From assembly GCF_035582795.1 (NCBI RefSeq), contig NC_134367.1, positions 88,953,062 to 89,017,061 on the forward strand: a stretch of 64,000 bases of DNA, read 5' to 3'. Below, piece by piece: positions 6,131 through 64,000 of the stretch (positions are counted from its first letter, which is position 1; each line of letters opens with the position of its first letter). Origin of the DNA: Mycteria americana. Lineage: Eukaryota; Chordata; Aves; Ciconiiformes; Ciconiidae. Position numbers and translations under genes: made by a program. The notes below the pieces were generated by a model, which was given only the letters and a program-made list of their open reading frames with translations, searched no databases and had not been told where the DNA came from.

Positions 6131-44898
<38,768 letters not shown>

Positions 44899-44979
44899 GG
44901 CTCGCGCTGCCCGCTCCGGCTCCGCTCCAGGCACATGCGGCAGCGCGCGGCGGCTCCGCTCCCCCCGCCTCCTCCTCCA

Positions 44980-45001
44980 GGGCGGGCGGGCGGGCGGGCG
45001 G
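44980..45001 (+). promoter_or_regulatory. GC-box cluster (tandem GGGC)
   Basis: Overlapping GGGCGG-type sequences in a short tandem GGGC repeat, about 80 bp upstream of the ADSS2 start codon. These match the Sp1/KLF recognition core. Confidence 0.6.
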
Positions 45002-45203
45002 TGGTGCCGCTGCCGCGTCCAGGTGCCGCCGCCTACCGGCCCCGCCAGCGCGGCCTCCCCCGCCGCTCCCCGCCAGGCAGACCCCTGCCCTCAGGGGGAG
45101 CCCCGCCCCGCTCCCCCGCGGAAAACCGGAGCCGCCGTCGCCGCTCCCGGCGGCTTTTTTCCTTCCTCGCCCTTGCGCCGCTCTCCCGCGCCTCGCAGCC
45201 CGG

Positions 45204-45227
45204 ACTACATTACCCAGCGCGCTGCGC
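45204..45227 (+). promoter_or_regulatory. ZNF143/THAP11 (SBS)-type motif, plus orientation
   Basis: The sequence ACTACATTACCCAGCGCGCT closely follows the consensus ACTACAATTCCCAGCATGC found in many housekeeping and bidirectional promoters. It lies between the two divergent start codons. Confidence 0.65.
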
Positions 45228-45262
45228 GGCCTCCCCCGCGCAGGGCGCCGCGCGGGGCCGGG

Positions 45263-45287
45263 CGCGGTGCATGCTGGGGCGCGTAGT
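45263..45287 (-). promoter_or_regulatory. ZNF143/THAP11 (SBS)-type motif, minus orientation
   Basis: Read on the minus strand it is ACTACGCGCCCCAGCATGCA followed by CCGCG. The 3' half (CCCAGCATGCACCGCG) is a very good match to the SBS consensus. It faces the motif at 45204, about 35 bp away. Confidence 0.65.
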
Positions 45288-45334
45288 CCTCCGGTGCCGC
45301 ACCTGTGGGAGGACGGTTCCTTGCGGGTTGCCCC

Positions 45335-45459
45335 ATGCGGCGGCGGCAGGCCGTGTCCGTGGGGGGCCGGGTAGGGGGCGGCTGCGGAGGAGCGGCCGTG
45401 GCGCTCCAGCGGGCACTGCTGGCCCTGCTATGGCTGCATGGCGGCTGCGCCTGGTGGAG
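45335..45459 (+). pseudogene. CATSPERE: CATSPERE exon 1 (signal peptide)
   Basis: The frame begins MRRRQAVSV and contains the hydrophobic core ALLALLWLHGGCA followed by WWR, comparable to the human VLLLWLSCYGSALWR. It would end with AG before a possible donor GTGGAA at 45460 (phase 2). The first base of exon 2 then completes the Arg codon, which independently supports the boundary. The reading frame is intact, but the donor is weak. The start codon is not independently supported. Confidence 0.55.
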
Positions 45460-46989
45460 GTGGAAGGAGGGGGCCAGGCGCGCTAAGGGGAGCCGTGGAG
45501 GGAGGCCTTTGTGCGTCGCGTCTGGCCTCGGCTCAGCGCGTACTCAGGCTGCGGCCTTGGGTTTGGTGGCCGCAGATCCTGCGTCCGCTCCCCAGAGCTG
45601 GCTCTCTGGGACGCAGCAGCCCGCGGCCTGACGTGCTACAGGTGTCCCCGCGCCGCTCCTGAACCGGAGTGGGTGGCCGCTGGTCCCTGCCAGCCTGGGG
45701 TCTCGGTGCTGCTGTGGCTCCCCGTTTCCCCTCGGGTTACATCTGCTGTGGGCAAGGCGTACCTGTGGCTCCTGTCACGCACGTCAAACCTGCAGGCGTG
45801 TGCTTGCAGTGTGTCATCACAGCTTCGCCTATGTGGTTAGTTTTGCTGACTTAATGATAAGAATGTAAACGAGTGTTTGTAGAACCAGGGGCTAAATGTA
45901 AGAGGCCATTTTCTCCAGAGACACTGGAACATGGCCCCAAGCTTATTCATGAGGAAAAAAAAAAATGGAAAAACCCCATAGCAGAGAAATGCCTTCATCA
46001 TGCATACTTGAGGGTTTAGCACTGGAACCGATGTCTCAGTGGCTGTTTTCATTCTTTCCTGCTTCACAGAATCAACACCCCTGGGGGAAGATTTTTTTTT
46101 GTAAAGTAGCTATTAAAAAGACATAAACCTGAATGATGTAATTATTGCTAAGACAGCTATTCAAAAACCTGAGTCACTGAGCAGTCACAATTTGCAGCTG
46201 TCTGGCAGTCTGTAGAGTTTGATTTTAGTTGCTTCTTTGCTCCTTCGGGTTTACTCTAATCAAGAATTTGAGGATCTATAAAAGCCCCTGGAGAAGAGTT
46301 TAACTGTGGCATGTAAAGCTAGGGAGATATATAAGAGAAAATTAAATACGACGTTGACAGAGAACATTTTTTTTTAAAACTGAAAATAACCTAAATCCTG
46401 AACGGCAGTGCAAAGAGATGCAATGACAAAGTAGTCAGTTCAGTACAAAGATGTTGAGCAATTGCAAATGATACGAGGCAATTGTGTACATACACTTCAA
46501 AGAGCAAATAGTTCCTTAAGCATTCTGTATAGTCCATAGTATTAATATTTTTGTCTGCTTATGCTAAAAAAAAACATAGCCATGATTTCTGTATCACTGC
46601 ACAGAGCTTGTGGGAAGTCACTAAAAGCCACAAGGAACTGCTGAAGTCAATTTCTCCAGTCTTGCTGACACAATGGCAAACTTTGCTTTAGTACACTCAC
46701 TTCTGAGGCCATAGATCACCTCCTGACTCCCCAAACAATGGTCTAGATTAATGTTTCGGGATATGATTTTCCAGTGTAGCTGAATCATTAACACCTCACC
46801 ATTGCCAACGCAAATATTCCCTCGAATCTCAAAATAAATCTGAGCCTGTCGTCGTAGTGTCCTAGCAATGTGGTATTAATGTAATGCCACTTTCCAAAGA
46901 GGTCTCATGCACACGAATCCATTGTTCTGCTGTTTTTATTTGGTGTAGAAGAGTTTTGAGATTTATGTTTTGGTATGTTTTCTTGGTAG
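45460..46989 (+). other. CATSPERE intron 1
   Basis: It begins in the tail of the CpG island and becomes AT-rich after about 45840. Several overlapping open frames at 45305-45854 are by-products of high GC. Nothing else was recognised. Confidence 0.55.
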
Positions 46990-47038
46990 GTATAGAACCA
47001 GTGAAGAAAACTATGAACTCTTCACTTCCAGAAAACCT
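46990..47038 (+). pseudogene. CATSPERE: CATSPERE exon 2, splice donor lost
   Basis: The acceptor TTTTCTTGGTAG is followed by 49 bp reading (R)YRTSEENYELFTSRKP. This aligns without gaps to human (R)YSTNSPNYRIFSTRST. It enters in phase 2, matching exon 1, and ends in phase 0, matching exon 3. The six bases at the expected donor are CTAAGT, one base away from the ideal GTAAGT, so the obligatory G has apparently changed to C. Confidence 0.75.
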
Positions 47039-48990
47039 CTAAGTATTTAATGAAGATCACGCTAATCAATACTGATTAGTACTGCAACGTTTGGAATTTT
47101 TATTTAATATATGGTATTATGGGTCCGTCATTCCTCCACCCCCTTTTCTTTGCAAACTAAATGGAGGCTTTCATTCTAATACTGTAAAAGACAATAAAAA
47201 CTCTTTATTGACATGATTCACTACGTGTATAGTATAGTTCTAAAACATGGTAAGTCTTGACCAAAGTACAAACATAACTGATGTCTTATGCCCCTTGTCA
47301 AAAACAGGCATTTGCTGTAGTATAAGTAAGAGTTTAGAATAAAACTGTGCAGAAACTCCTAATTGCACTTATTTTGGTTCATTTACTATAAGCAAGAAAA
47401 CCAGCAAGAGCATGCAATGTTACAGTACTGTGTTTTCCCTCTAACATGTATGGACTTTATTTTTTTTATTAACTTTTTTTGCTATTTAAGCAAGCTGAAT
47501 ATGCTCTGTGAGAGGTCAGGTGGGCATTTAGAGGTGGCACAAAGCGGCAAGACTTTATGTTCAAGGAATGAAGGAATGTGACTGCCTTTTCTCGCATTAG
47601 CAAGCTGGTATATGGGACTGACTTTGTAAAACTGAACCCACGGCAGAAGTGTGCACTGATAAAGTTTAGGTTGTATTGTCTTCTGAATTGTTCAATGTTA
47701 TTGACTGGATATGAAGAACCGAGGCAGTTACATTTATCACAAATTTCACTCTTAATTTGGGTACATTCAGGCTTTTCATATGACTGCATTTCCTGCCTCC
47801 CAATAAATTGGAAGAGACTCAGACAGGAACTTTTCATAGATAAACACTGAACGGAAGAAGTATGAGATTTGCGTTTCATTCAGATGTGTTGAAGAGATAC
47901 GTGGAATTGTTACATCTGTATGTTTTCAATTATTCTGATGAAGTATCCCACATATTCTGATTATGTATTTAAAAAAAAATTGACAGACAAAGTAGTTTAG
48001 AGGAGAATTTAGGTAAGAACTTCAGTAGTTCAGAAAATCAAGGGTGAGTATGAATGAAGGGAAAATGCTGTAACAAGGAAGAAGGCTGACTGGACTATTA
48101 GCTAATGCTCAGCATAACTGATGGGTCATAAAGTGTTCTTTCTTTCTCCTTATTAATGCTTCTTAATTGTGTTGAAGCACTACTGAATGATGTTAATACT
48201 TTCCTGATATGATACTGTTTTTCCTACTGTAAGCAATTTCTGAGTTTCAGGAAAAGTATATATTGAAGAAATAGCCCTTGGCAATGAAAATGTCAGCGCA
48301 CGTGGTCCATGGTACGAGTTTGTTAAAATTGGTTCTGCCTGTGACAATGTAATACTCAAGATATTTTACACTGAGGTCTTATCTACAGTAGAACAGTGGT
48401 TACAGAAAAGTGGTCTGTGGACCATGGTTAGCTAATCTGCAGGTGTCCTACAGAACTCCGTTAAACAATAACATGTTGACATTTGTCACATTAATCTCAT
48501 TAAAACATTCAATGAAAGGTAAGTTAATTTTACTTCCTGATTATTTACAGCATCTTTAGAGCATTTTCCTGTTTTAATCTGATGTTAAGATGTACAGCAG
48601 CTCACAAAAAATAATGGGTATTGATAGTGCCATGGTCAAAAAAAAGTCTAAGAATCACTGTGCCAGACACAATTGGCATCTGTAGCACTTCAAACTCTCC
48701 AGAATGCTGTCAGCTTAGCTTAGGAGGAAGAGAAATCATTATACAGTTAGGACATACATAATTTTATTTGAACAGTGTGCTAATGTGATTGATCCCTGCT
48801 TGTTGCTTGTTATTACTGTTTTTAAATTAGTTTTTCCAGTTAAAATTTCCCTTAATTATTTTTGTTATATTCATTAATCTTTTTATCATTATAAAAATGA
48901 GATTAAGAACATTATAATGTAATATTTGTATATGTTGTCACAACCGATACATTTGCACACACTAGCAAGTGTTTTCAACTCTTTGGTTAG
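47039..48990 (+). other. CATSPERE intron 2
   Basis: AT-rich, about 1.95 kb. It contains a short hAT-like DNA transposon (48394-48660). An open stretch at 48251-48433 partly overlaps that element and shows no similarity I recognise. Overlapping frames at 47469-47879 look like chance. Confidence 0.7.
48394..48660. mobile_element. Short non-autonomous hAT-like DNA transposon
   Basis: The left end, CAGTGGTTACAGAAAAGTGG, and the right end, ...AGTCTAAGAATCACTG, form imperfect terminal inverted repeats of the CAGTGGTTCT(C/T)A type seen in hAT/Charlie elements. The interior motif GGTCTGTGGACCATGG is also typical. It is 267 bp long, too short to encode a transposase. An 8-bp target duplication is no longer visible. 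Confidence 0.6.
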
Positions 48991-49064
48991 ATATATCTAG
49001 AATATGAAGGAACTTCATTTATTGAGTGGGAATTTCCTGATGTATGTACTGCAGAAGGCAAAAG
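48991..49064 (+). pseudogene. CATSPERE: CATSPERE exon 3 (frame intact)
   Basis: 74 bp from acceptor TTGGTTAG to donor GTAAGA, phase 0 to phase 2. It reads IYLEYEGTSFIEWEFPDVC and then TAEGK. This aligns directly with human IKLEYEGTLFTEWSVPETC. No lesion was seen in this exon, and both splice sites are intact. Confidence 0.85.
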
Positions 49065-52000
49065 GTAAGAACTTAAAAAATCATAAACATCACCACAATA
49101 GCAAGATTTTGAATTTAGTGGGAGAATAGTTAAGATAATACAGGATACTTTTGAAATTTCATTGGCAGTTTACAGAAGTGCATTTTTTACATGCAAGTGT
49201 AAATGAGATAGCAGCTGACAAGACTGGAGATACACAGGAAAATAAAATACTGTCTTTGAAAAGTTGTAAAGCGAAATCCTTTGCTTGAAAATGAGATTTG
49301 TAAATTATGATTTGCAAAGACAACTATATTATATAATAATACTAAAAAAAAGTAAAACAATTTTAAATGAGTTCTTCAAATCTGCATATTCCATTCTCTA
49401 AAAGAACAGCAAACAAATTGCTGTCTTTACAGAGCAGAAATGAAACACAGTTTTCTGTATGTATAATACTGTAATTTAAATATTTACCTACAACATGATG
49501 AAGATGAAAATGGACATATATGATACAAGTTAGCTTTTATTACAGTGTTCCCCCCGGAATGTCATTGCTTCCTGCGATTTGAGCAGCAGCTTACCCTGCA
49601 AGGCAAGTGTAAATAAGTTCCCTGTTCCTGAGTGTTATAACATGTTAAGTGTGTACAAAGACACTGTGTTCTGTCTCTGCCTTAGCCTTTGACGGCATCA
49701 GCCATTAAAAGTTTAATAGAATGCATTTGTGATAGATCTTGGGTGATTAATTTTTTGCAGGACTTTATAGATTTATAAATTTCTCAGAATATGTCTCTCT
49801 GAGTCAGGGAGAATGAAGAACTATGTAAGGGAAACAAAAAACCCTAATGAATGTATGAATCCTTTTTGTTGTTTTTATTCATTAAAACAGGACGCCAAAT
49901 ATTGCACAATATTTGACTAAGAAAGTTCTTTAATTGGCTGAAAGCTTTTCCTTTTTCCTAGGTCTGTTTTTTGGCTAGAATAGTTCTCTTATCTGGGTCA
50001 TTGCAAAAGTGTCACCTCAAGGGAGGGGAGCACAGTAGCACCAGTTTACATCAGCTTTATCTGTTTGAAAACAGCACCCTGAGTTCACCATCTCTTGAAA
50101 GTGCCACAGGCGCTGTGGGTGAGAGCTGCTGCATCAACCAAGATTGTATTTGGTTGTTAAATATAGGTTAGGACAAAGGTTCTTGGCTGTGTTAACCTGT
50201 AACCCATAATACCCGAGTCCTGATAAATCCTTAATTTCTTTTGCTACTAATCCTATCTGATGTTTTGGGACAAGATAGGATGAGACTAAACTGGTGAATG
50301 GGGTGAAGCGTGACCTTAAAGGCAGGCGATCAGGATGTGCAGGCCTCTAGAATGACCCATACCGCATTCTTAGAGAGCTCAGGGGCTGGGACATGTGCCC
50401 TGCCAGTTGTCTGTCATTACGGGGCTTGTTTATATAGCTGTTGCGAGACAGTCATCTTGGAGTTCCCCAAAGTGTCACTGATACTGTACAGTAGCTAGGC
50501 TGTCTCACATACACGTGAGAAAAACTTGAGCCAAAAGCTTAATGAGTATTTTACATGCTTTTAGGCTCGAGTTTCTCTCACATTCTTTTTTCTTTTCTTT
50601 TTTTTTTTTTTTTAATTTGGTCCAATGTGCTTATAAATAATGCCCTAGAACTATAATCATTCAGTCTTAGAGATGTAGATTGTCTGTCACTGGAGTGCTG
50701 AATTGCTAGATTGTATTCTCTGTTTAATAGAAATGTGGGGTTTTGCTCTTGCACAAACTTATGAAAAGGACCCTGAAATCCTGCATTTTCAAGATTTAAT
50801 CTAAATAGATTCTCAGATGCACATATCTCATGTTAACTAATATTAAACATTTGTGTTATGTGTGGCGTTTATTTTTTAAATAAATTTAGTTCATCAAAAA
50901 CAACACTGGCCTGTCCATTTGCTGGGACTTACAGAGTAAAAGCAAAAGTAAGACTAACGTAACCTGTGAGAATAAATTGTGAGAAAATTAATTGCGGTCT
51001 GATCATTGTGGACTTGGTGATGGTTTGGATGCAGATGTTTCTCATAGCACCCATAGTCTGTTGTGAAATGGAGCTCCAGAATTGAATATGCTATTTACAA
51101 AATAAGCCATCTTTATCTGTAAAGGTTGTGAAGGAAAACTTCCACATAAGAACAGAGTTTAACTAGCGTAGAGATGGTTTGTTTGCTTGCAAGATGAATC
51201 ACTGAATTCTGAGATTTCTGATAGCCTCTTTTATTTTATAGAAATATTAAATATTTTACACTTATTCCTTTAACATCCAGTTACTCTTCTTGCTCTGCAG
51301 ACCTGTCTGCATCACATATCTTCTCTGGGGACAAAAGACAGCTGCTTATCATACATAGCTGCAAAAACCCTCAGCTTTTTCACAGTAGTTTTTGTAATGA
51401 CCATTGAGTGTTTCTATACCAAATTCTGTAGTATAATTACAGCTTAAAAAAAGTATGGGAGAATGTTAATAGATTTTAATCTTACATTAAATGAGATATA
51501 AGAAACCATTGTGCAGACATTATGAATTTTCTTATTAAGTTCATCAGAACTCTTGATTCTTAAATGGGTTTGTAATAATAGTATTTCCTGCCTGTTACGC
51601 TGGAACAGCACACATTATGTGGATATTGTCACAGATTTCCACCATGTTTACCGCAAAAAACTTGGGATTTGACTAATTAGGATTTTTTCAGTATTTTGTA
51701 AAGAATGTAAGTAAGTGGTGTTTTGGGATCTGAACTGTAATTGGTTTTGGATCTGAAGAAGTTCATGCTGAATCCTTATTGTGATGACTGACCAGAAGGA
51801 ACTGTAGTATCTTTTAAAGAGATTAAAGAAGTCTGCAATATCATGTTGAATCCCTGTTTGTTAGGTAAGACTGTTATAAAGAAGTGAATAGTATTGGGTT
51901 TATGTCGCCATTTAAGGTGGCACAGAAACATATGTAAACTGCATAAATGCAGTGCATTCTATATACAGGATCTAATATACAGGCATTTAAAAAAAAACCA

Positions 52001-52587
52001 AACACATTTCATGTAAGAAACCTCTCTTGAGTATTTTCTCTTACCAATGGGATTGCTGCAACTTATTTCATTAACATCAAAACTAATTGTTGCCTATTTG
52101 TTCATGTTCTCTAACCTTCTAACATAGGAAAGTGTCCTATGACCCTTTCCCAGTGCAAAACCTTAGTTCTCTCCCATTTATGTTTCACCTCACCCTTTCT
52201 ATCTAAATAATCCTAAATCCTACCCATGTGTGCCAGCTCTCTTGTTGCCTTTAATACTTCCATTTCGTACCAGTATGTCTTGAGCCATTCCCGAATAGCT
52301 TAGCTGTTCGAGTTTCCAACTACTGGTTGAACAAGAGGTAGCAAGTGCTGTGATGAGTCCTAACCTGCAGATGTGATTATTGACCAAAGCTTCAGGACCT
52401 GGAGTTTCCAAGCATGCTTGTGTGTTCATAAATAGTCTCACTGAATTCAACTGGACTATTCATAAATCAAAACTTTTTCTGTAAGTAATAAAGCATTATG
52501 TAGATGTATATATTGATACAAGTAAAATATAAACCAATAGCACTAGGAAGACAGTATATCAAAGCAAAACATGTTTCTGTCTTTCAG
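49065..52587 (+). other. CATSPERE intron 3-4 region
   Basis: About 3.5 kb of AT-rich DNA. It should contain exon 4, for which only a doubtful candidate was found (49546-49602). A pyrimidine run lies at 50585-50613. Confidence 0.6.
49546..49602 (+). pseudogene. CATSPERE: Doubtful CATSPERE exon 4 remnant
   Basis: It follows an acceptor (TTTTATTACAG) and ends at GCAAGT, a GC-type or mutated donor. One frame reads VPP and, after a one-base shift in a run of six C, PECHCFL, loosely resembling human SPTTELRCSS. The expected phase does not fit without an indel. This is a weak case. Confidence 0.25.
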
Positions 52588-52672
52588 ACATTTGAGGCTA
52601 AAGAGCAGTATTTGCCTGCTTCTGATCATTCTAATTGTTTCATGTGGTATGTGACGGCAGCTTCGCAGACAG
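52588..52672 (+). pseudogene. CATSPERE: CATSPERE exon 5 (frame intact)
   Basis: 85 bp from acceptor CTGTCTTTCAG to donor GTAGGG, phase 0 to phase 1. It reads TFEAKEQYLPASDHSNCFMW followed by YVTAASQT. This aligns with human PDEEERYLFVESSHTCFLWY, including the conserved Cys and Trp. The frame is open. Confidence 0.8.
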
Positions 52673-55600
52673 GTAGGGGGGTTTTCTATGTAAATATTTT
52701 TTGAAATAAATAACAGTAACGTTTTTTAACAGGGATAATAATGACCTGTTTGAATAAATGAAAAACCTGACAGTTTGGAATTTATGAATTTTGGATAATG
52801 TTGGGTATTGTGTATATATATATGTATGGGTCAAATTGAGAACTCTTTTGTTTCTATATTGAATCAAAATCCATAGAAGGTGAAAAGAGCTTTTGTACTT
52901 AGTACAGGTCTAAAAATGAAGGATATTGACATGTGGGTTCAGATGTAGCACTGAACAAAGACACAGCCAGCCATTGCCCAAGGTAAATCAGTGTTTAAAG
53001 ACAGAATTGCAGAAGGCAGCTCATGAGCAATAGGTTACAAAGAAAAGGGTGTTTTATTCTTCTAAAGAGACGGACTTGGGAGGACATATGTCTAACAGGT
53101 CTAAAGGTTATTGAAGAACCTCCTATCTAGTGTAGAAAGCAGGGGGATTTTGATTGCAGGGGCCAGAAAGAAGTACATGTTTCTTGAAAGGAGTCAATTG
53201 TAGAAATAAAAATATTTTGGATGCTGTTGCAGGACTCCAAAGAATGCTCAAAAGAAGGGAGGAAAATGAGGCAGAGACTTTATTCTTTTGTCTGTGTATG
53301 TGTATTTATCCTGCTCATTAAAGTAATGATTTTTAAACCTTAGAACGTAAGCATGTGTCCCTGCACACTCTTAACGTCTCTGAAGAAGGCTATGTCAGAG
53401 TGAAGTTGCAGCTAAAATGCATGTGCTCAGACAAACAGAAATTAAAAATAATTGAAGAGAAGGTGCCCCTTGTGTGGAGGGAGAGCACATGCTCTTGAAG
53501 TGTGCTAGACAGATCAAGAAAGAAATGAATAGTGAAGCCTAAGAGCACACATTTTAACATAGTAAGACCAGACAGGAACCCTGGTGGTTGTCAGTCTAGG
53601 AAGCCCTACTGGAGTTATGAACACCTTACACTCGGTAGCATTAGGAAAAAGGAAAGAAAAAGTCTGATGGTTGTGACACTACTGAAAAAGTTCTGTAGAT
53701 TTCCTGAATAAAACCAGTAGATTTTAGGCAAAAACAGTAACTTGTGTTCTGGTCCTATCATCCATGGAGTTTGCCAGTATTTGGCTTGCTTTACTTAGGA
53801 GGAAAACATCTATAATGCTCGTTAGGAATATTTTTAATGGCATACTTTTGCTTATGAAATATGTATACAATGTCCTGCTTCTCTAAACAGAGTAGAAATA
53901 AATAGCAGTAGCTTTCCTTTTCACAGTTTTTGAACCCCTCTGGTAGCTCTTGTGTAATGCAAAGCATCACGTGCTTGCCCTCAGAGCCATGTAACTGTTT
54001 TATCTGTTTATTTGTGTAGTAGGCTAGTAAGCCCCTTATTCGGATTTTTTTTCTGCCAACCCCAGGGTAAACTTCCTTGAATGTTTTCTGTTTTGATTAG
54101 TGTTAATGTTGCCTGAGAATGTCTTCCTACATTTCCCAGATATTACTGCAGAAAGGAGCAATTAATTGCTTTTTTTGTTTTGTTTTGCTGGAAGGAATGC
54201 ATTGAGTTCAGTTACCAAACTTAAACAAAACGTGATTGACAAGAAGCCAAAGACAACCTTAATGGCAGCAATCTCTCTCATCCTAGAAAAACCATAGATC
54301 AGACTTTTGTCTTCTACTTCAGTCACGCTAGTTAGAATTACTTGTGTCTTTGCCTTAAAACTGCAAATTTAGTTTAGTCGTCCTATGGAATCTTTTCAGC
54401 AAATTTGAAGATAATTGGTAGATTTTTAACATTTTACTTGAGTGGTGATTAAAACATGCTTCCGTATTATAAACTCTGATCCTTGTCTGCGGCTTCTTTT
54501 TTCCGTTTAAACTGATGGATGAATTCTTGACCTCTTTTGAAAAGGCAGTGGATGTTTTAGCATTGACTTCATCAGAATTAACATGTCATCCAGGATGTTT
54601 AATGGGGTTTGATTTCATGCAATCCTAATTCTATTGTATTTCTGACATCCAAGATACAGCAATTTCCCTGCCTTTCCCTTGCCCTTGGACCTTACCCATT
54701 CCAGCTGGAGCAAGAGTGCGGAAGACTCAGAGGCCCTAATTCTAACACAAGCAGCACTTTGCTGCCTGTCATGTCGTTACAGAGAGGGACACATCTCCCT
54801 TATTGGAGCAAGGAGTCTTCTGCTCATATAGGACGCAACACAGGGTCTCCACTGTGCACTCTGATACAGCAGGTATACTTCCTTGCAAACTGATCTTTTT
54901 AATCTGGTAACTTTAAATAAGGTGAACTTTTCAGAAGACATGCTTTATTTGAATAGTACGTATTTTTGGTACGAGAGAAGCTACGTTATAAAAAAGCCTA
55001 TGAAAGATGCTTAAAGTATGTTTTTAAATGAGAAACATCAGCAAATATAGATCTCTCTTTAAATATTAAATATTTATGCAATGGAACAACCAAAGCCAGT
55101 ATGTTAAAAACATTGTTTTAGACACTGTATACACGTCATACAAGCAGATTGATTTAAATAATGTACAGTAGTTCTATTCAATAGCAAGCTTTTGAATGAT
55201 AATTTAAAGTAATATGTAATTTATTGTTTTTGTAGGACAGATCCACTGTCCATAAGAGAAAGCCGGGTAAATTTAAGTTTGAATGTGTTCTTTGGCCTTA
55301 TATCTTAATCTATCTCCAATTTTTTTTCTCATTTTTATGGAATACAATTTTGACACAAATTCAGGCTGATTAATGGCAGACTTTGGCAGATGAACCTATT
55401 ATTTGTTGCTTTGAATCTGTGTACTTGTTTGAGACTTTTAAAATGTGTGTGGCATACAATGAATCTGATTAAACATTCCATTGGTACAGTGAACTAGTAT
55501 CATCTTGTTTATGAAATTCCTTATTTCGTAACATCTGCCAAATTTAATATAAAGAGATGATAACATGAACTATTTCCTACCTCACCCCCTCTTTGACTGT

Positions 55601-58600
55601 GAGAAGGATTGTGATCATGTGGGGAAATATGAGAACTTTAAATAATAAAGAAAGTGTCCTTGCTAACAAACTGAATTCATAAGTAGTTTGCAGTCTGCTA
55701 AAAATAATTGCACTTCACAGCTGTGTAAGCAAGCTTATATTCTCCTTGTGCAAGTTCTTCTACTCAGCCACCTCTGAGCAAGCAGCTGTATGATTACTCA
55801 GCTTGCTCTATTCTAAGGACGGATGGCAAGACTTGGCATTTTTGATTTGAGTAGATAAATAGGAAACTGCAGGATGCGAACTGTACGATGTAAACTTGCA
55901 GCACGTCAGCTGTTTAATGGTAACTGCCCCTGTGCACATCCTTACACTGCTATACTTGGTGGCAAAGGTGGTGAGTCCGCCTCACTGAATGATTCTTCCC
56001 CTTGCGTGTACCATGCGATGGAAATACCAGGTATTTGCCTTCTTCCTCACTGAAAGAGCACCATGTCATCCGTGTGCCAGTCGTGGAAGCATACACGATG
56101 CACATTTAAGTAACAGCTTCGTAACATTTCCTTGGCAAGAAACAAGTTCTGTTTTGTTTTAACAGTGAGTAACCCCTCTTCCTTTGCCGCAGCAGAACAG
56201 GCTCCATATATAGCTGCACAGCCCACAAGAACAGAGAGAAACTGAGGAAGGGCTCCTGAGGGAAGTATGGCAAAAAATTCTTCTGCATAAATTCTTACTC
56301 TTTCCCCCTTTATTTCTGAGAAAAGGAGGTGCTGCTCCCCTCAGTTGTTGCTGCCTCTTCACATCAAAAAGAAACAGAAGAGTACAAGACTAGCTTGCAG
56401 CATGCACATTGCCTAAGTAAGTTAATACTATTACGTTATCTTATGTGTTGTCACAAGAAGAAATGCTATCGCAGTGACAGAATATTAGCATTTGTTAAAA
56501 AACTACCAACTTTTGTCTCGTTTTTACTTGTTAGAAGTTAATTTTGTGCATATATGATCCCGAAAGTGCAGATGCTTCCGAACTGAACCACGCTGCAATT
56601 ATTCCATCGCAAGTACGTTGAAATGATGCCACTTAAGAAAAAGGTTAAAATGCACGTCTTGTGAATATTTACCAGCTGAAAGTGGAAATGTCTTATTGAA
56701 ATATACTGCCTGCATACATCTTTACTTATTTCCTTTTACTGTGTTAGGAAAAAAAATTTGCAAGATTTTCTCTCCTGTTAATACTGCAGCAGTTACACAG
56801 CTATGAGTGCGGTGGAATTTTCTATTGTCTATTTCATAGAGATAGAATAATTAGCAAGTTTTAGTGATTCAGTCCAATTTTAGTCTTTGTGAAAATTATA
56901 TTCATAAATTGTAACTGGCAGTAACTTGTGACAGTTAAACTGAAGTCTCTTTTCAGATTTCCTCATGCACCTGCATAGCAAACTGTTGGAAAAAAGTTTA
57001 AGCAAAAGCATTGTGGAAGTAATGAAATGTGATAACCAGGGATGACAATTTACTGCTTTAATTTAGACCTAAAGTGACAACCTATTGTACAAGCTGAATG
57101 GAGATTCATTCAAAAGATTATCCCACATGGATTAGTTGTAGGGATTAATATGTACAATAATTTTTGTTAGGAGTGGGTTTCTGATCTAAACGAATGGCAG
57201 AAAGTAATTAGTCATTAGTACAGTACCTGACATGAGGTATGCATGCATGGCACCACAATTTATTTCAGGTTTTCTTATTATTAAGTTGCCATCATTATAT
57301 CTTCTAAATCTTTAACATTTGTTTAATAATTGACATTACTATCTTCAAGACTAAAATGAAACAGAAGAAAAAGGTAGCAGTATTAATTGCATTGTGAAGG
57401 CATTTTTGTTATTAGATAACTAGATGTTAGGAAAGTGTTTTTGTTTTCTGTCTGCTGCTACAGAAAGAATGCAGAGAAAACTGAACTTGGCTCTGAGTGT
57501 TGTGTATTCTGAAATGAGTAGATTGAGTAAATATGATTTTAATGGTATGTCATTGTTTGAAAATGTATTTTATAATATCAAAGCTTATTCCAACTTCATC
57601 ATTTCAAAAGAGAAATGTTGTCATAAACAGCCTTATACTAGTTGGACAAAAATATATTTAATAATAACCTTTATTTTATGTAGAGTTCTCAGATACTTGG
57701 AAGGCTGTTTTGGAATTTGGGACAGGAACCTGTTGTTCATACCTATTTCAAAAAAAGAAAAGTACTATTCTCAGGAGCATCCAAAATTAGGGTATGGTAT
57801 TTTATTTATATTTTTTAAATGGAATGCTATTTAAAATTGTTACACTTGTGACTCTACAAACAGCTGTTGATGAGAGGCCCATATGTGGGCCTCTTTTTTT
57901 CTACTTTGAGATAATTCTGTGCTACAGTAATAATTTTGCCATTTTTCCTTTTCTTTGAAGACAGCTTGTCATCTACTAGGCAGGTTTAGCTGCCCTTTGT
58001 TTCATTCACCATAGTACTTAAACTTTCATAGGCCTTTCTCTCAGTCCTAAAAACCTCACTGTATGTAATTGTTCTGCTTCATGTGTATAGAAGCTCATGG
58101 AGTAGAAAGCAAGACTGGGCTCAAAAACCACTTAACATTTTTACTGTAATGAATGGTCTTGGAGTCTTAATTGTCAAGTTGTAGGTATCAGCTCGAAGTT
58201 AAACATATCCCCCCATTCAGGCATGCCATTCCTGGAAGTTCAGAACATGTGTGAGGTATTACACCAAACACCTCATCCTCATTTAGGAAAAAATCTTGGA
58301 CAGATACCCTTCTTCACCCTTCTCTAGACTTCTAAGCGGGGGTTGCACATTTTTACTTTATGTGCTGATATTGCAGGCACAATTTCAAAAAAGAAGTAAG
58401 GTAACTCGGCAGAGTATCATTCAGGTTCAATTAAAGTGCTTCCAGTGTCTCTGCTAGCTTGTTTAGGATAAAGTTCAGGTATTTGTGCAAAGTACCACAT
58501 CTTAGACATTTTCTTTCACCTGTTGCTGAAGAATTCAGCGTGTTCTGTGAATCAACAGTTAACTATACCCTTGATGAGCAGGAGTAGGGCAATGGCCGTA

Positions 58601-59359
58601 GTAATAGGGTTCTAAACATATGTGATAAAATAATACCCAAAGTATTAATCCTTCTTTTAATGCTTATATTACAGTCATGCTTTGACTGGGTGCTTGCATG
58701 TTCTGCATAGGAAATAGAATGGCAAGGAAGCAGCTGGAAGGTGAGGGAAAAGCGAAAGGGGTCCCGGAACCTCCTCGTACTACAGCATCCACCATCAGGT
58801 GATGTTCATAGGAGCTTTTTTCTTAGGAACATCATATAGGATTCCAAAGGGTGAATAAGTTTCTTTCTTTTCACAAGCAACTATTGTCAGTTTTCTTAGA
58901 AATAAATAAAGGGATTGTGGTAAGATTTTAGTGAGTCTGGACAGTCACAAAAAGGCAATTCATGAATCCAGACAAACCTGGCATTTGAAGAGCTTCCTGA
59001 GGCAGTGCCATCCCCTTCAATTCCTATTTTTTCTGTGCTGGAGCCCCTGATGAAACTCTTCTGCACTGTTATTTCTAGTATTATGGACTAATAAATATTA
59101 GAACTAATGTAAGGACACTCATACTGTCAGATGCTCTACTTTTATCACTGCACTGGAGGGCAATTACTTCTTTTCCTTTCCAAGAGTATGTAGAATTCAC
59201 CATATGTTGCAGTGTGCTGTGAAAACACAACAGGTCAGCAGTGACAAAAATTCACAGTTTTTATTTGATTGTGAGTTCATAAGAAAATAGAACAAACCAG
59301 TAAATAATAGTGATGTGAACATACCAGGAGTTATGTGAAGGAAAGGTATTTGCCACAAG
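52673..59359 (+). other. CATSPERE intron 5
   Basis: 6.7 kb of AT-rich DNA. It has a TA/TG microsatellite at 52810-52827 and a hairpin plus T-run at 57873-57900. The 136-codon open frame at 57424-57834 shows no recognisable domain. No exon was recognised. Confidence 0.6.
57873..57900 (+). other. Stable small hairpin followed by T7
   Basis: A perfect 9-bp GC-rich stem (AGAGGCCCA / TGGGCCTCT) with a TATG loop is followed at once by seven T. In bacteria this would be read as an intrinsic terminator. In a vertebrate intron it could at most end Pol III transcription or be a relic. No A/B box or RNA gene was recognised upstream. Confidence 0.5.
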
Positions 59360-59441
59360 TTTTGTGATCTGTAAAATTTTATCCTATTTGGGCCTTCAGT
59401 GAAGCTAATCCAAATACATCAGAGCTGAATTTTGTCATGGG
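59360..59441 (+). pseudogene. CATSPERE: Candidate CATSPERE exon 6, with in-frame TGA
   Basis: 82 bp from a weak acceptor (CCACAAG) to donor GTAGTG. It enters in phase 1, exactly as exon 5 requires. It reads VL, a TGA at 59365-59367, then SVKFYPIWAFSEANPNTSEL and NFVMG. This is comparable to human LITVWAYDPESADPDELLG in the WA..., N/E and SEL/DEL positions. The upstream pyrimidine tract is poor, so the exon may be further decayed or misplaced. Confidence 0.5.
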
Positions 59442-62066
59442 GTAGTGAGAATGACTCGGGATTTACATTTTACAAGGGGTTCTCAACTGCAGCTGTTTCC
59501 TGCAGCATATTTGCCATCTGACCCTTACCCATTTTACACACTCTCCTAATGCCAATTTTAAGTTCACTACTATTTTGTGACTTTACCTTCTTTTTTAAAG
59601 AGTTTACTCTCAGCATGTAATTAATGCTATGTATTATACTGCAAGAAACGAGTATGACTTCTAATGGGGTAGGTAGTACTGTTTATGTAGGTTTGGTCTG
59701 CTCTCCCTCCGTCGTTATCTATTGTACCTTTCTATTTTATCACTAGATGGCAACATAGCAACACTCCATATCAAAAGTTGCTCTAAACAGAGATGGGCTT
59801 TTTCTATCGCATTTTTCACAGCAGAGCTTAAATAATTGACCCCACCCCCCGAAATGGGAACATAAGCATTCTGGCAATTTCAGTAAATTGTTTCTTAATG
59901 GTGTGAGTTCTGGTATTACTTTTTTCTATCTTATTAACTGCTTTCTAGACAACTGAAATGCAGAATAATCAAGTAAGAGCAAATAACATTGCTTTATAAA
60001 TTAACAGTCTTTTTTCTTCCAAATAAGGAAGAGAGTCTATTGATTCATCTGAATCATCTCACATATGCTTGGTTATTTTGTGGAAACACCTTTTATTGAA
60101 GCCAGTGGCACTTGTGTTCACATCTACAAGAACAGAATTTGCATCATTTTTGCCTTTCCAAATATTTCATTTACTGAGATAAGTCTGGAAGTTCATACAT
60201 CTGTTGATAGAAAAACACTGAAGTAAGTTTGGGGTAGAACAACTTGTATCCAATAATCATATGCAAGAGTCTCCTTAGCATCCCTCTTGAGAGCACTGAG
60301 CCCACAGACTAATTCAAATTCTAGTCAGACTGGACAGGATGATTATCACTAGACAAGGTATGAAAACTGAAATTTCAAACTCAGTTTCTCAGGAGACATA
60401 TTTTCCAGTGAAATGAGAGAAAAAGAAACAAGACCAATCTTAACTGAGCTACCAGCTTCTTTTGCTTTTGGAACCTTGGACAGGCTCACAGTGTTGCTCA
60501 GTATTTGGTAAACAGCCAGTGAGAGGCTCTTAGGCTTCTTAAGTCTCCTCTGAAACTCAGCAGCAGCTTCTCAGGAAATTCAAAACAGTTTGTAAGAATA
60601 GGAATCGGTTCTGTCCTGCATCACATTTTCTCCAGAAGCCAAAACTAGAAAGCTTATACTCCTCCCAGGTCTGCTTTATCCTGACCTGAATTTTTTGATT
60701 TTTAAGTTTCTGTCAGCCCTGCTGTATCCTGATGTAGTGAAACAGAACTGTTTGGGCCTTGATACTTGAACAAGTCATCTTCTTCAGAGATGCTGGCCTT
60801 TTGCACCCTATCAGATCCATTATTATCTTACGTATTTAATGAACAAGTCGTATTATGCCAACTGAAGTTAGGGAAGTAATATTGGAAAGCTGTGCAGCTA
60901 CTATTAATTGAAAAGTAACAAAAATAATTTCTCTGTCTTGATTAACTTGCATTATCCACACCCTCTGTTTCCTGGGAATGTTCGTCAAGGAAACCTCTTA
61001 AGCTTCAAACTTACTCCGGACTTGATGTATTGGAGCTACTAGAGCTGTGTTCATATCAATGTATATCCTAATAAAGTGACAGTATGCTATGTACCTGTAA
61101 CTGGGACAACCACACATATTGTTGATCTCTGTAAGGAACCCATCAATGAATGGATTAGTAGAATTAATTAATAATTCTATGCAATACACTGAGCATGGGC
61201 AAGTGAAGCATATAAGCATAAGGATATAGAATTACATAATATGATTTGGGTTTTTTTAATCTGATTCTCTAAGTTAGTTGCTTACCAAGCATACTAACAT
61301 TTTCTGCTTTCAGTGCTTAGAATATCTGCATTAGGGATGCATATGTAACTGTCAATGTGATGCATACATACACATACACTGAGTGTGTAAGAAACCAAGA
61401 ATTCTTCTTCCCAAAGGCTTAGAAATTCCCAAGATTCATGACAATTTCTTTTGTCAGGTTTGCTAGTCTGCATGATTTACAATAAGCCTATTCCTACACA
61501 TAGGTTATCTCTTTTAAGCCCCGTTTTCTCTTACTGCTTATCAACACAACTCTTGCTGAATTATCAGTGGCCCTGATCATCATCTGCAACAGGGTTTGGT
61601 ATTAGTTCTTGTTAATCTGTTTTCCTCTACGCATTCCAAGTAGCTCAAAGAAGGCTGTGGGAAAGGTGGGGAGAACGTGTCCTCAGTAATAGTGAAAGCT
61701 GTATTATTCCATGGAGTTATAATGTTACAACCATTCATTTTTAGCTCCAGATACTCTCTTCTCAGTCAGATCTTTCAGTCATGTACAGTTTCCAGACAGC
61801 ACTAAGACAGGAATATGTCTGGTTTTGTAAGTTTAGAAGTTAAAGTCCAACTGCAGGCAAATTTTGATCTTTTTCTCCCTGATTTAATTTCATCATCTAT
61901 CTTTTGGAATTAGAACAGAATCTGGAAATAATTTGTACCACTGTAGGTGCAGTTCTTCTACGAATGTGACATTAATCAGTAGCTGAATTTCTTTCAGTCA
62001 GTTCAACTGACTGAAGTTTTCATCTTTTAAGTTTCTCTGTTTATCTTTTGTTTCTTCTATTTCCAG
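59442..62066 (+). other. CATSPERE intron(s) with one unlocated exon
   Basis: Phase and alignment imply one or more exons here encoding the segment around human GQKPVIHT. I could not place it securely. The minus-strand frame at 60998-61219 has no recognisable similarity. Confidence 0.5.
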
Positions 62067-62559
62067 ATTATGGACTGTTGATGCACCTGCAATATCTGGT
62101 GACATCATAGCAAAAATACCTGAAAAGCCAATGGTATTTCAGGGATGCTTTGTTCTAGATACTCCTTTTATAATTCCACAGCCCAAACAGTCATTTCCTA
62201 GCAAGGAAAATTACATCTCACTCTGTTCCCCCCAAAATAGTGACCTCTCTGTTAAATGGTCTGCATGTTTTCCAACAACAGCAGCTTTGTTATCAAATTT
62301 TGGAACTTTCTATAAAAATGATGGATTCAAAACGTATATAGAAATAAAAGTTCCCTCAGATGCTTTGACCCAAGGCCTAAATAACAATGTAACCAATGTG
62401 ACTCTAACAGATAATGGAATCATATTTTTAATAAATGGTACTTTTTATAAACAAGAAGCTAATAATTTTTTTAAACTTGAAGCAGAACACAAGCTTCCTT
62501 AAAGTGAAGTAACTGGAATACATTCAAGATATTGGTGTTCATCTGTCTATCCAGTGCAG
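62067..62559 (+). pseudogene. CATSPERE: CATSPERE large exon with premature TAA
   Basis: 493 bp from acceptor TTCTTCTATTTCCAG to donor GTAAGT. It reads LWTVDAPAISGDIIAKIPEK and later NVTNVTLTDNGIIFLINGTF, aligned with human VSDVTLSRDGIVFLINGVLY. After HKLP comes TAA (62500-62502), then SEVTGIHSRYWC to the donor, which aligns codon for codon with human GGITGISSRKWC. The stop replaces an Asp codon in human. Several NxT/NxS glycosylation sites are present. Confidence 0.88.
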
Positions 62560-62946
62560 GTAAGTTATCTGTAGTTCTCATTTGACATTTAAGATATGGA
62601 TGGTCTTCATTAAATGTCTGGATGAATCTATTTTAGATCTACTTTTCATTGATGTAATGCTGGGTTTGGAATTACAAATGACCAGACAGCAACAACTTTA
62701 TTTAAAGAACATTTTGAAATAAGGTCTGCACACTGTCTGTGGCTCTCACTGCATGAGCTCATGCAGCCATATGAAATCATTTTTAGGATCACAGCTTAAA
62801 TTCATAAATTAATTTCAGTGAAGCTCTCCTAATTACATTAGCTGAAAATGCATCCCAAAACATCTTGATTTCTTAATGTATATCCTTGATATTAAACTTT
62901 AAGAGAAGTTACCATTTACCTAATCACTGTGTCATTTTTTTAACAG
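62560..62946 (+). other. CATSPERE intron between the two large exons
   Basis: 387 bp with intact GTAAGT and TTTTTTTAACAG ends. It contains an 18-bp perfect palindrome, CTGCATGAGCTCATGCAG, at 62749-62766. Confidence 0.8.
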
Positions 62947-63414
62947 AGTGGAAAACAATTAAGTACTTTGGCACCATGCACACCTACTGAGGTTTATCTT
63001 GGATATAATGAAACATTTAATAAAATAGGAGATACAGGAAACGTCGTGAAGTTCTTAAATTTTCCAAACGCTACTTCTTTATATATAGAGCCTGTTAGCT
63101 ATGACTCAGTCCCATCTGAAATTATGTTGTTGCTGATCTGCAGTGGCTGCAGCTCCTCCAGACTTTTTTTTCTGGCAGTTTATAATGCAGACAATTTTGG
63201 GGCTTAAGAAATCTTTACTTACCCGTTCCTTGCAGTTCTGTTATGAGCATGATATACATAAATGCAGCATTGTCATCTGGGCTGCTGTGGGATGACGTGA
63301 GCGTTTACTACACCTGCAAAAACAACACAGATAATGGATATTTTCAAGTATCTGGATGAAAATTTTCTTTATCAGAGATGTCTCATGGGAGCACTATTCA
63401 CCAGATTATTCTTG
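62947..63414 (+). pseudogene. CATSPERE: CATSPERE exon with two stops and a frameshift
   Basis: It starts in phase 0 with SGKQLSTLAPCTPTEVYLGY, aligned with human AKELKSSFAVWTENEIYLGY. The frame continues through EIMLLLICSGC and LFFLAVYNADNFGA to a TAA at 63205-63207, then EIFT. After a one-base loss near 63217 the alignment moves to another frame: LLWDDVSVYYTCKNNTDNGY, FQVSG, TGA at 63357-63359, KFSLSEMSHGSTIHQIIL. This matches human LWDKHRVYY and LSEGSIIHQV. A possible donor GTTAAG follows at 63415. Confidence 0.85.
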
Positions 63415-64000
63415 GTTAAGTATGTTATATTTTAAGTAGTTATGAAGCATTTTCTTGTAATGAAGTGAGAAAGTGAAAGAAATTTCAAGACCATTGAAGC
63501 TACCTTTTTGTAAATGACTGTAGTAGAATAATATTTATTCATTTCATTGGTCTGTTAAGACTGAAAATTATTATTTTTAGATGGACAGACATACCAAGAA
63601 GAGAGTTAGCAAACTGTTATTCTTCAGGTATTGTTAACCTGCACCCCTATCAGTATGATTCTAACCTGCTTCCCCTATTCAGTATGGTTCTAATAAGAAC
63701 ACTCTGGCTTTCAGCCTTAGCATTTGTTACAAGAAGATAACTTGATTATTTTTGTGCAATTCTGTTTGACTAGAAGTTTAATGGCGTGATAGCTCTGATT
63801 TTTCTCAGGAGAAGGTGACTGAAATGGCATGACAACAACAACTTTTTCAGTACATCAAAGAGAGATTATTTTGCAACTTTATGACTTTTTAAGGCACTCA
63901 CTTTCAGATTATAATCACAGCATCATATTGAAAATACCTGGAATTCCCAAGTAGGACACAACTGTTTTTAAGTCCTTTTATTCATTATTCCAGTCTCAGG
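63415..64000 (+). other. Presumed CATSPERE intron to window end
   Basis: No further exon was recognised. The next CATSPERE exons and then DESI2 would be expected to the right by synteny. Confidence 0.5.

Follow-up and report, generated by a model that had tools for sequence, protein, structure and literature searches.

CATSPERE survives as a lightly decayed unitary pseudogene beside intact ADSS2 in Mycteria americana

The 64,000-nucleotide stretch of the Mycteria americana genome analysed here (the window; C3:88953062-89017061 within the 1.35 Gb assembly) contains nine exons of CATSPERE, ordered on the plus strand between positions 45335 and 63413 and lying head to head with ADSS2. CATSPERE encodes the accessory subunit epsilon of CatSper, the calcium channel of sperm; a complete protein would have a signal peptide, two N-terminal domains, a beta-propeller, the C-terminal domain that it has in common with CATSPERD, and a single membrane helix. 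Because the gene order and the introns are kept and no second CATSPERE copy was found in the assembly, the gene is the native one, a unitary pseudogene at its ancestral place. Very probably, it decayed neutrally there after a late death, with other CatSper genes also lightly broken. A preliminary description of the window had recognised at least six of these exons, mostly in matching phase and with several independent disabling changes, all of which is borne out; the interval it gave, 45335-63414, fits our exon map (ATG of exon 1 at 45335, end of exon 9 at 63413), although the gene itself does not stop there but runs another 17 kb past the right edge of the window.

Results

Identity of the gene

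The human CATSPERE query was verified against mouse CATSPERE (7eeb_H; 1149 bits over residues 3-951), and spliced protein-to-DNA alignments were obtained with a custom-made program. Human residues 1-560 aligned to 45000-64000 with a score of 574, as compared with 63 for the minus strand, 85 for the reversed protein, 67-75 for two further stretches of the window (one on both strands) and a mean of 69 (maximum 87) for 16 order-2 Markov sequences. The small N-terminal exons only (residues 1-178 against 46000-61500) scored 185, versus a mean of 51 (maximum 67) for 40 Markov sequences and 46-51 for five other controls; mouse CATSPERE scored 167 on the same stretch. The Beta-prop_CATSPERE profile, found in exons 8 and 9, matched 62011-62499 at 9e-21 and reached 7e-37 in a stop-tolerant frame, and these two exons also matched the mouse CATSPERE structures 9ubw_H (5e-23) and 7eeb_H (6.5e-23). 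CATSPERE_NTD2 was found above cut-off in exon 7 (4.9e-9) and CATSPERE_NTD1 slightly below it in exon 3 (6.6e-6; 26.6 bits, cut-off 27), whereas PF22850 reached 25.2 bits on one C-terminal exon, below its cut-off of 27.4. NTD1, NTD2, the beta-propeller and the CATSPERD/E C-terminal domain thus occur in order, and every CATSPERE domain leaves a trace, residues 503-650 excepted.

Human residues 1-502 are readable in the nine window exons, with one unclear stretch at about 106-119. Over 450 residues in eight hand-picked aligned blocks, from which exon 1 and the links between exons 4-5 and 5-6 were dropped, 160/450 were identical to human CATSPERE and 144 to mouse; human and mouse share 237 of residues 1-502. 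All eight cysteines common to human and mouse are retained, as are 28 of 32 cysteine, tryptophan and tyrosine positions combined.

Searching the whole assembly with human CATSPERE, a procedure that scores the best candidates only (here 10/10), yielded six matches at E <=10, four at this locus and two at a CATSPERD copy on C2, so that no functional copy was found elsewhere in the genome. The gene order is C1orf100-ADSS2-CATSPERE-DESI2. In mammals, CATSPERE likewise lies beside ADSS2 and DESI2. Introns, synteny and the single location rule out a processed or transposed copy, so that the earlier proposal of a native relic stands.

Exons in the window

All nine exons are on the plus strand. Exon 1 (45335-45459, the ATG at 45335 being tentative) encodes the signal peptide and ends in LLALLWLHGGCAWW-R at the donor AG/GTGGAA; the Arg codon is split AG/G between exons 1 and 2, giving WW-R-YRTSEE, which matches human LW-R-YSTNS. 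Exon 2 (46990-47038) encodes YRTSEENYELFTSRKP, exon 3 (48991-49064; donor GTAAGA) encodes IYLEYEGTSFIEWEFPDVCTAEGK within CATSPERE_NTD1, exon 4 (50890-50947; donor GTAAGA) encodes SSKTTLACPFAGTYRVKAK and exon 5 (52588-52672; donor G/GTAGGG) encodes TFEAKEQYLPASDHSNCFMWYVTAASQT. Exon 6 (56535-56612) ends in YDPESADASELNHAAIIPSQ, and exon 7 (57684-57790), with SSQILGRLFWNLGQEPVVHTYFKKRKVLFSGASKI, belongs to CATSPERE_NTD2. The beta-propeller starts in exon 8 (62067-62559; donor GTAAGT) and continues in exon 9 (62947-63413). The eight introns in the window are GT-AG save at lesions, as expected for a native, intron-containing gene. Phases fit at junctions 1-2, 3-4, 4-5 (by eye), 6-7 and 8-9; at 2-3 the phase fits with the donor broken, and at 5-6 and 7-8 the phases clash. 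For exon 10, the remainder of the window (63414-64000) gave a score of 33, which was matched by 31/100 Markov sequences.

The gene beyond the window

The preliminary description had suggested searching some 60 kb to the right, and the 59 kb examined there hold the remainder of the gene, ten further plus-strand exons reaching to about 80995 (extended window coordinates). The C-terminal half aligned with a score of 353, as compared with 94 for the minus strand and at most 112 for eight Markov sequences. Spliced alignment placed exons at 66306-66364, 71505-71557, 74228-74327, 78415-78575 and 79823-79876. The exon at 71027-71102 has lost its donor (CAG/GAAGGC), those at about 73146-73273 (with a TAA at 73174 in the upstream frame) and 75040-75119 carry frameshifts, and the last, at 80872-80995, encodes the membrane helix and the natural stop; a further exon, at 72342-72395, was placed by the mouse alignment and the phases. 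In total, 19 exons with 774 counted codons were mapped.

Residues 503-650, the end of the propeller, left no trace in the 2.9 kb between 63414 and 66305, where the score was 37 against a Markov mean of 35.6 and was reached by 37/100 sequences; nor did 63414-82000 or 82000-120000 give anything above six Markov sequences each. Pieces at 64105-64204 that the human alignment offered for this block were dropped as chance. A tandem repeat with a 29-base unit lies at 63635-63693, just past exon 9 and near the edge of the missing block.

Lesions

Across the whole gene we counted two stops, two lost donors, three exon frameshifts, two phase clashes and the loss of residues 503-650. Six of these lesions, all on the plus strand, are in the window. 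The intron-2 donor (47039-47040) reads CT for GT (CCT/CTAAGT), and the nearest GT after exon 2, 4 nt downstream, is out of phase. Exon 6 (56535-56612) does not match the phase of exon 5, and about 4-5 residues are lost. At the end of exon 7 (57684-57790) the in-phase donor reads AG/GGTATGG, its first GT coming one base late: to join exon 8 in phase, exon 7 would have to be cut directly behind ATTAG, where GGTATGG follows, and a second, later GT restores the phase yet creates a TGA at the junction. Exon 8 is open for 144 codons ahead of an in-frame TAA at human D324 (62500-62502), and exon 9 contains a frameshift (63193-63197) followed by an in-frame TGA at human H485 (63357-63359). Judged from the sequence, no full-length product can be expected from this gene, because the exon-2 donor is lost, junctions 5-6 and 7-8 clash, exons 8 and 9 contain stops, and the gene further carries three frameshifts and another lost donor.

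Decay load and age of the loss

For dating we used 774 codons of fixed exon spans plus 72 splice bases, dropping split codons, 18 bases of exon 6 before YDPES, positions 73146-73199 (which contain the TAA in the upstream frame) and frameshift bases. Stops were counted on fixed spans because a penalised alignment path undercounts at high decay, and frameshifts were left out because their use would require an indel rate. Four substitution-type lesions are sure (two stops, two donors); two ambiguous ones, the donor of intron 7 and the 73174 TAA, would make six. At kappa 2, the divergence since loss (d) is 0.022 (0.006-0.057) for four lesions and 0.033 (0.012-0.072) for six; for the window part, d is 0.038 (0.017-0.074) when the retention of cysteine, tryptophan and tyrosine is included and 0.029 (0.007-0.076) from lesions alone. 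With bird neutral rates of 2-3.9e-9 per site per year (PMC2946954), the central ages are 6-17 million years, with upper limits of 15-36; an assumed slow rate of 1e-9 gives 22-33 million years, with upper limits of 57-72. At rates from 1e-9 (assumed) to 3.9e-9, the load does not match the ~90 million years of a loss common to all Neognathae.

We simulated decay by adding d to exons 8-9 (n=20 each, indels being assumed at 0.1 per substitution). At d of 0.03, 0.09 and 0.18, the mean score fell from 409 to 334, 192 and 82; the aligned span shrank from 322 residues to 317, 294 and 134, and visible stops averaged 2.6, 3.1 and 1.2. Score and span are therefore a better gauge than stops on the alignment path, which do not rise steadily with decay. 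A relic about 90 million years old should be much harder to read, an expectation that the STK33 relics of neognaths fit (PMC4509753). The light decay fits poorly with a single loss at the base of Neognathae, and CATSPERE seems to have died late and not in an early ancestor of modern birds. As to the earlier claim that the loss could be dated lesion by lesion, the dating of single lesions requires other species; the total load is usable and points to a late loss.

Other CatSper genes in the genome

Nearly all of CATSPER3 is present (C8:4405055-4414113, in the stretch C8:4400429-4414113). Its best alignment is without a stop, with one possible frameshift before the S4 helix and the filter stretch TVDGW retained; a strict alignment gave no fully open path, requiring an inserted stretch with a stop. 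Several exons of CATSPERB (head, Ig-like and C-terminal) lie on the minus strand of C5:55760001-55780000, and a single frame change, in the head domain, has weak support; chicken chromosome 5 carries CATSPERB (PMC2572835).

The only CATSPERD copy seen is intronless and nearly full length (C2:127110719-127113126, plus strand). It retains the propeller, the Ig-like domain and the C-terminal domain, has changed frame three times and is free of stops over the 728 codons counted; one TGA flagged in the match is placed at the third frame change, at the end of the frame-0 stretch. A search with the C-terminal domain revealed no second copy. Birds generally have few retrocopies. This one lacks poly(A) and shows no clear target-site repeat, so it looks old; being old yet stop-free, it would in the simplest reading have worked until late. 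CATSPERE, CATSPERD and CATSPER3 pooled contain two stops in 1854 codons (d 0.009, 0.001-0.032), a count that is favoured towards the low side because the fewest-stop phase was taken for each CATSPER3 exon.

CATSPER4 gave two exon-like matches (C21:5216784-5220208) with 50-51 percent identity, one with a TGA; these traces contrast with its reported absence from Neognathae (PMC6679542). CATSPER2 gave one match, on C6, and six CATSPER1 matches with 21-34 percent identity were taken as other channels. A partial query for the CATSPERG propeller found nothing above cut-off. An STK33 query had no match above 51 percent identity among 80 (best 84 of 337 candidates scored), and a kinase on C5 near 55.43 Mb was rejected as an STK33 relic, as it is an open kinase with ~41 percent identity (82/198) and was taken as another gene.

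Neighbouring genes and features

ADSS2 (6131-44898, minus strand), which reads from a start codon at 44898 to a stop at about 6131, is intact, as previously described, with 13 coding exons, no stops or frameshifts and 12/12 GT-AG introns; 406 of 443 aligned residues are identical to a human ADSS2 sequence that itself matches 2v40_A. The ADSS2 and CATSPERE start codons are 437 bp apart, and the CpG-rich gap between them (44899-45334) is a candidate bidirectional promoter, with GC of 0.76-0.79 and a CpG observed/expected ratio of 0.83-1.04 in three 250-base windows covering it. The two best matches in the window to a ZNF143-type motif, at 45204-45222 and 45269-45287 (14 and 15 of 17 positions), lie between the two starts in opposite orientations.

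To the left of ADSS2, exons of a C1orf100-like gene are found at 241-1640 on the plus strand (DUF5530, 3.2e-9); the first exon seen of this C1orf100 (SPMIP3)-like gene apparently ends with a GC donor or without a donor. DESI2 occupies 85226-97402 (extended window coordinates), to the right of CATSPERE, and COX20 had no matches in the right flank. Rfam and ARAGORN gave no matches, and neither did exon 8 against viral_contigs and genome_contigs nor 44000-46000 against phages. Repeat scans with 14 CR1-like words and a CR1 tail, and a self-comparison, yielded no usable signal.

Discussion

If this lineage came to do without CatSper, CATSPERE would have been released from selection, and lesions would then have gathered in it at the neutral rate, with ADSS2 maintaining the CpG island between the two genes. 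The light load (d ~0.02-0.03) suggests that the gene stayed intact through most of bird history until a late death, alongside the other lightly broken CatSper genes. Several points weigh against a decayed CATSPERE as mapped here. Exon boundaries were inferred without a reptile orthologue, and single N-terminal exons are weak (for example E 1.8 and 6.8), significance lying in the set only. Support for the exon at 72342-72395 and for the start of the one at 73146-73273 comes from the mouse alignment and the phases, other pieces having been picked by the human alignment. The clashes at exons 5-6 and 7-8 amount to one base of phase each, and an alternative exon 5 donor (TAT/GTGACG, phase 0) would cost about 12 residues. 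In addition, a stop-free path using GT-AG introns only can be traced from exon 1 as far as the 62500 TAA.

That last path bears on whether the gene is still used, through alternative splicing or as a truncated, secreted N-terminal fragment, which we regard as very improbable even though exon 8 has its long open stretch, the conserved cysteines are all present and the CpG island is intact. The path ends at residue 323, is the best of its kind, and needs a 6-nt exon and other unsupported pieces; moreover, exon 2 has no in-phase donor, skipping it leads to a stop in exon 3, and exons 5-6 and 7-8 cannot be joined in phase with the donors seen. Still less credible are assembly or base-calling errors that break an intact gene artificially. 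The 5-6 and 7-8 clashes and the exon 9 frameshift do lie near short T or G runs, but homopolymer error accounts for neither the stops nor the two donor substitutions nor the absent 148-residue block, and ADSS2, which adjoins on this contig, shows no defect in 443 residues and 12 introns, so that sequencing error was rejected and base errors do not explain the ten lesions.

An old loss, in the Neognathae ancestor ~90-100 million years ago, with the relic kept readable by slow mutation or luck, would agree with the reported absence of CATSPER1, CATSPER4 and CATSPERG from Neognathae and the reported CATSPERE fragments (PMC6679542). It would also agree with the lack here of orthologue-like matches for CATSPER1 and the CATSPERG propeller and of an STK33 match above the identity given for the 80 listed (STK33 being a neognath relic; PMC4509753), and with the missing block, which is a large lesion; the simulated stops show, besides, that few visible stops alone are no proof of youth. 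However, at d=0.09 (90 million years at 1e-9) the probability of so few lesions is 3e-4 (<=4) or 3.5e-3 (<=6) with kappa 2, and 1e-3 or 9e-3 with kappa 4; at d=0.18 (2e-9) it is 4e-10 or 1.6e-8, which practically excludes so old a loss at that rate. The two stops of the pooled genes have a probability of 4e-7 at d=0.09, and the simulated fall in score and span at d=0.18 is to be set beside a human-mouse score of only 785 for the same exons. We thus consider an old loss unlikely. It is possible, and we propose it tentatively, that the loss of CatSper was no single event at the root of Neognathae: selection may have acted on CATSPERE, the intronless CATSPERD and CATSPER3 up to perhaps 5-30 million years ago, long after the disappearance (as far as searched) of CATSPER1 and CATSPERG, in a reduced complex or as single subunits with another role in sperm, the final losses coming late and lineage by lineage.

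This locus bears on when and why birds dropped a calcium channel essential to mammal sperm. The relic is readable, its intact neighbour serves as a control and further CatSper genes lie in the same genome, which makes the loss datable and comparable between bird orders. If the light decay holds, a single ancient loss in modern birds is wrong.

Comparison with known systems

The loss of CatSper in birds, with short fragments left, was reported in 2008 (PMC2572835), and in 2019 fragments of CATSPER3, B, D and E were described in zebra finch, and likewise in chicken together with CATSPER2, with CATSPER1, 4 and G missing in Neognathae (PMC6679542). CatSper genes have been reported in the palaeognaths Apteryx and Tinamus (PMC6660944), and another study reports CatSper1 alone as missing from birds and lists CatSper2-4 sequences of a few species (PMC11289002). 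The earlier statement that CatSper is absent from birds is thus too strong in view of the palaeognath genes, the CatSper2-4 sequences and the fragments. Among titles and abstract starts of the open-licence literature, we found neither a CATSPERE lesion map in a bird nor an intronless avian CATSPERD. An avian CATSPERE relic as such is not novel (PMC6679542, PMC2572835); its light decay is the unexpected part.

The closest case is the same gene in zebra finch, where it is syntenic and fragmentary, with the same pattern in chicken (PMC6679542). The available text of that paper has no exon-by-exon or lesion list, as compared with the 19 exons and 774 codons mapped here, and its remark on likely pseudogenization concerns another gene class. 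The CatSper-beta and CatSper3 fragments of chicken and zebra finch (Cai and Clapham 2008, PMC2572835) have likewise decayed in place between conserved neighbours, but they are short (66 aa for beta) and represent other subunits. Mouse (7eeb_H, 9ubw_H) and human CATSPERE have the same domain order as the relic, the mouse protein being complete and functional. STK33 is likewise a testis-expressed gene, intact in palaeognaths and a syntenic relic in neognaths (PMC4509753); its relics are more decayed, with several exons lost (six in mallard), indels and several stops, whereas the CATSPERE described here is less so.

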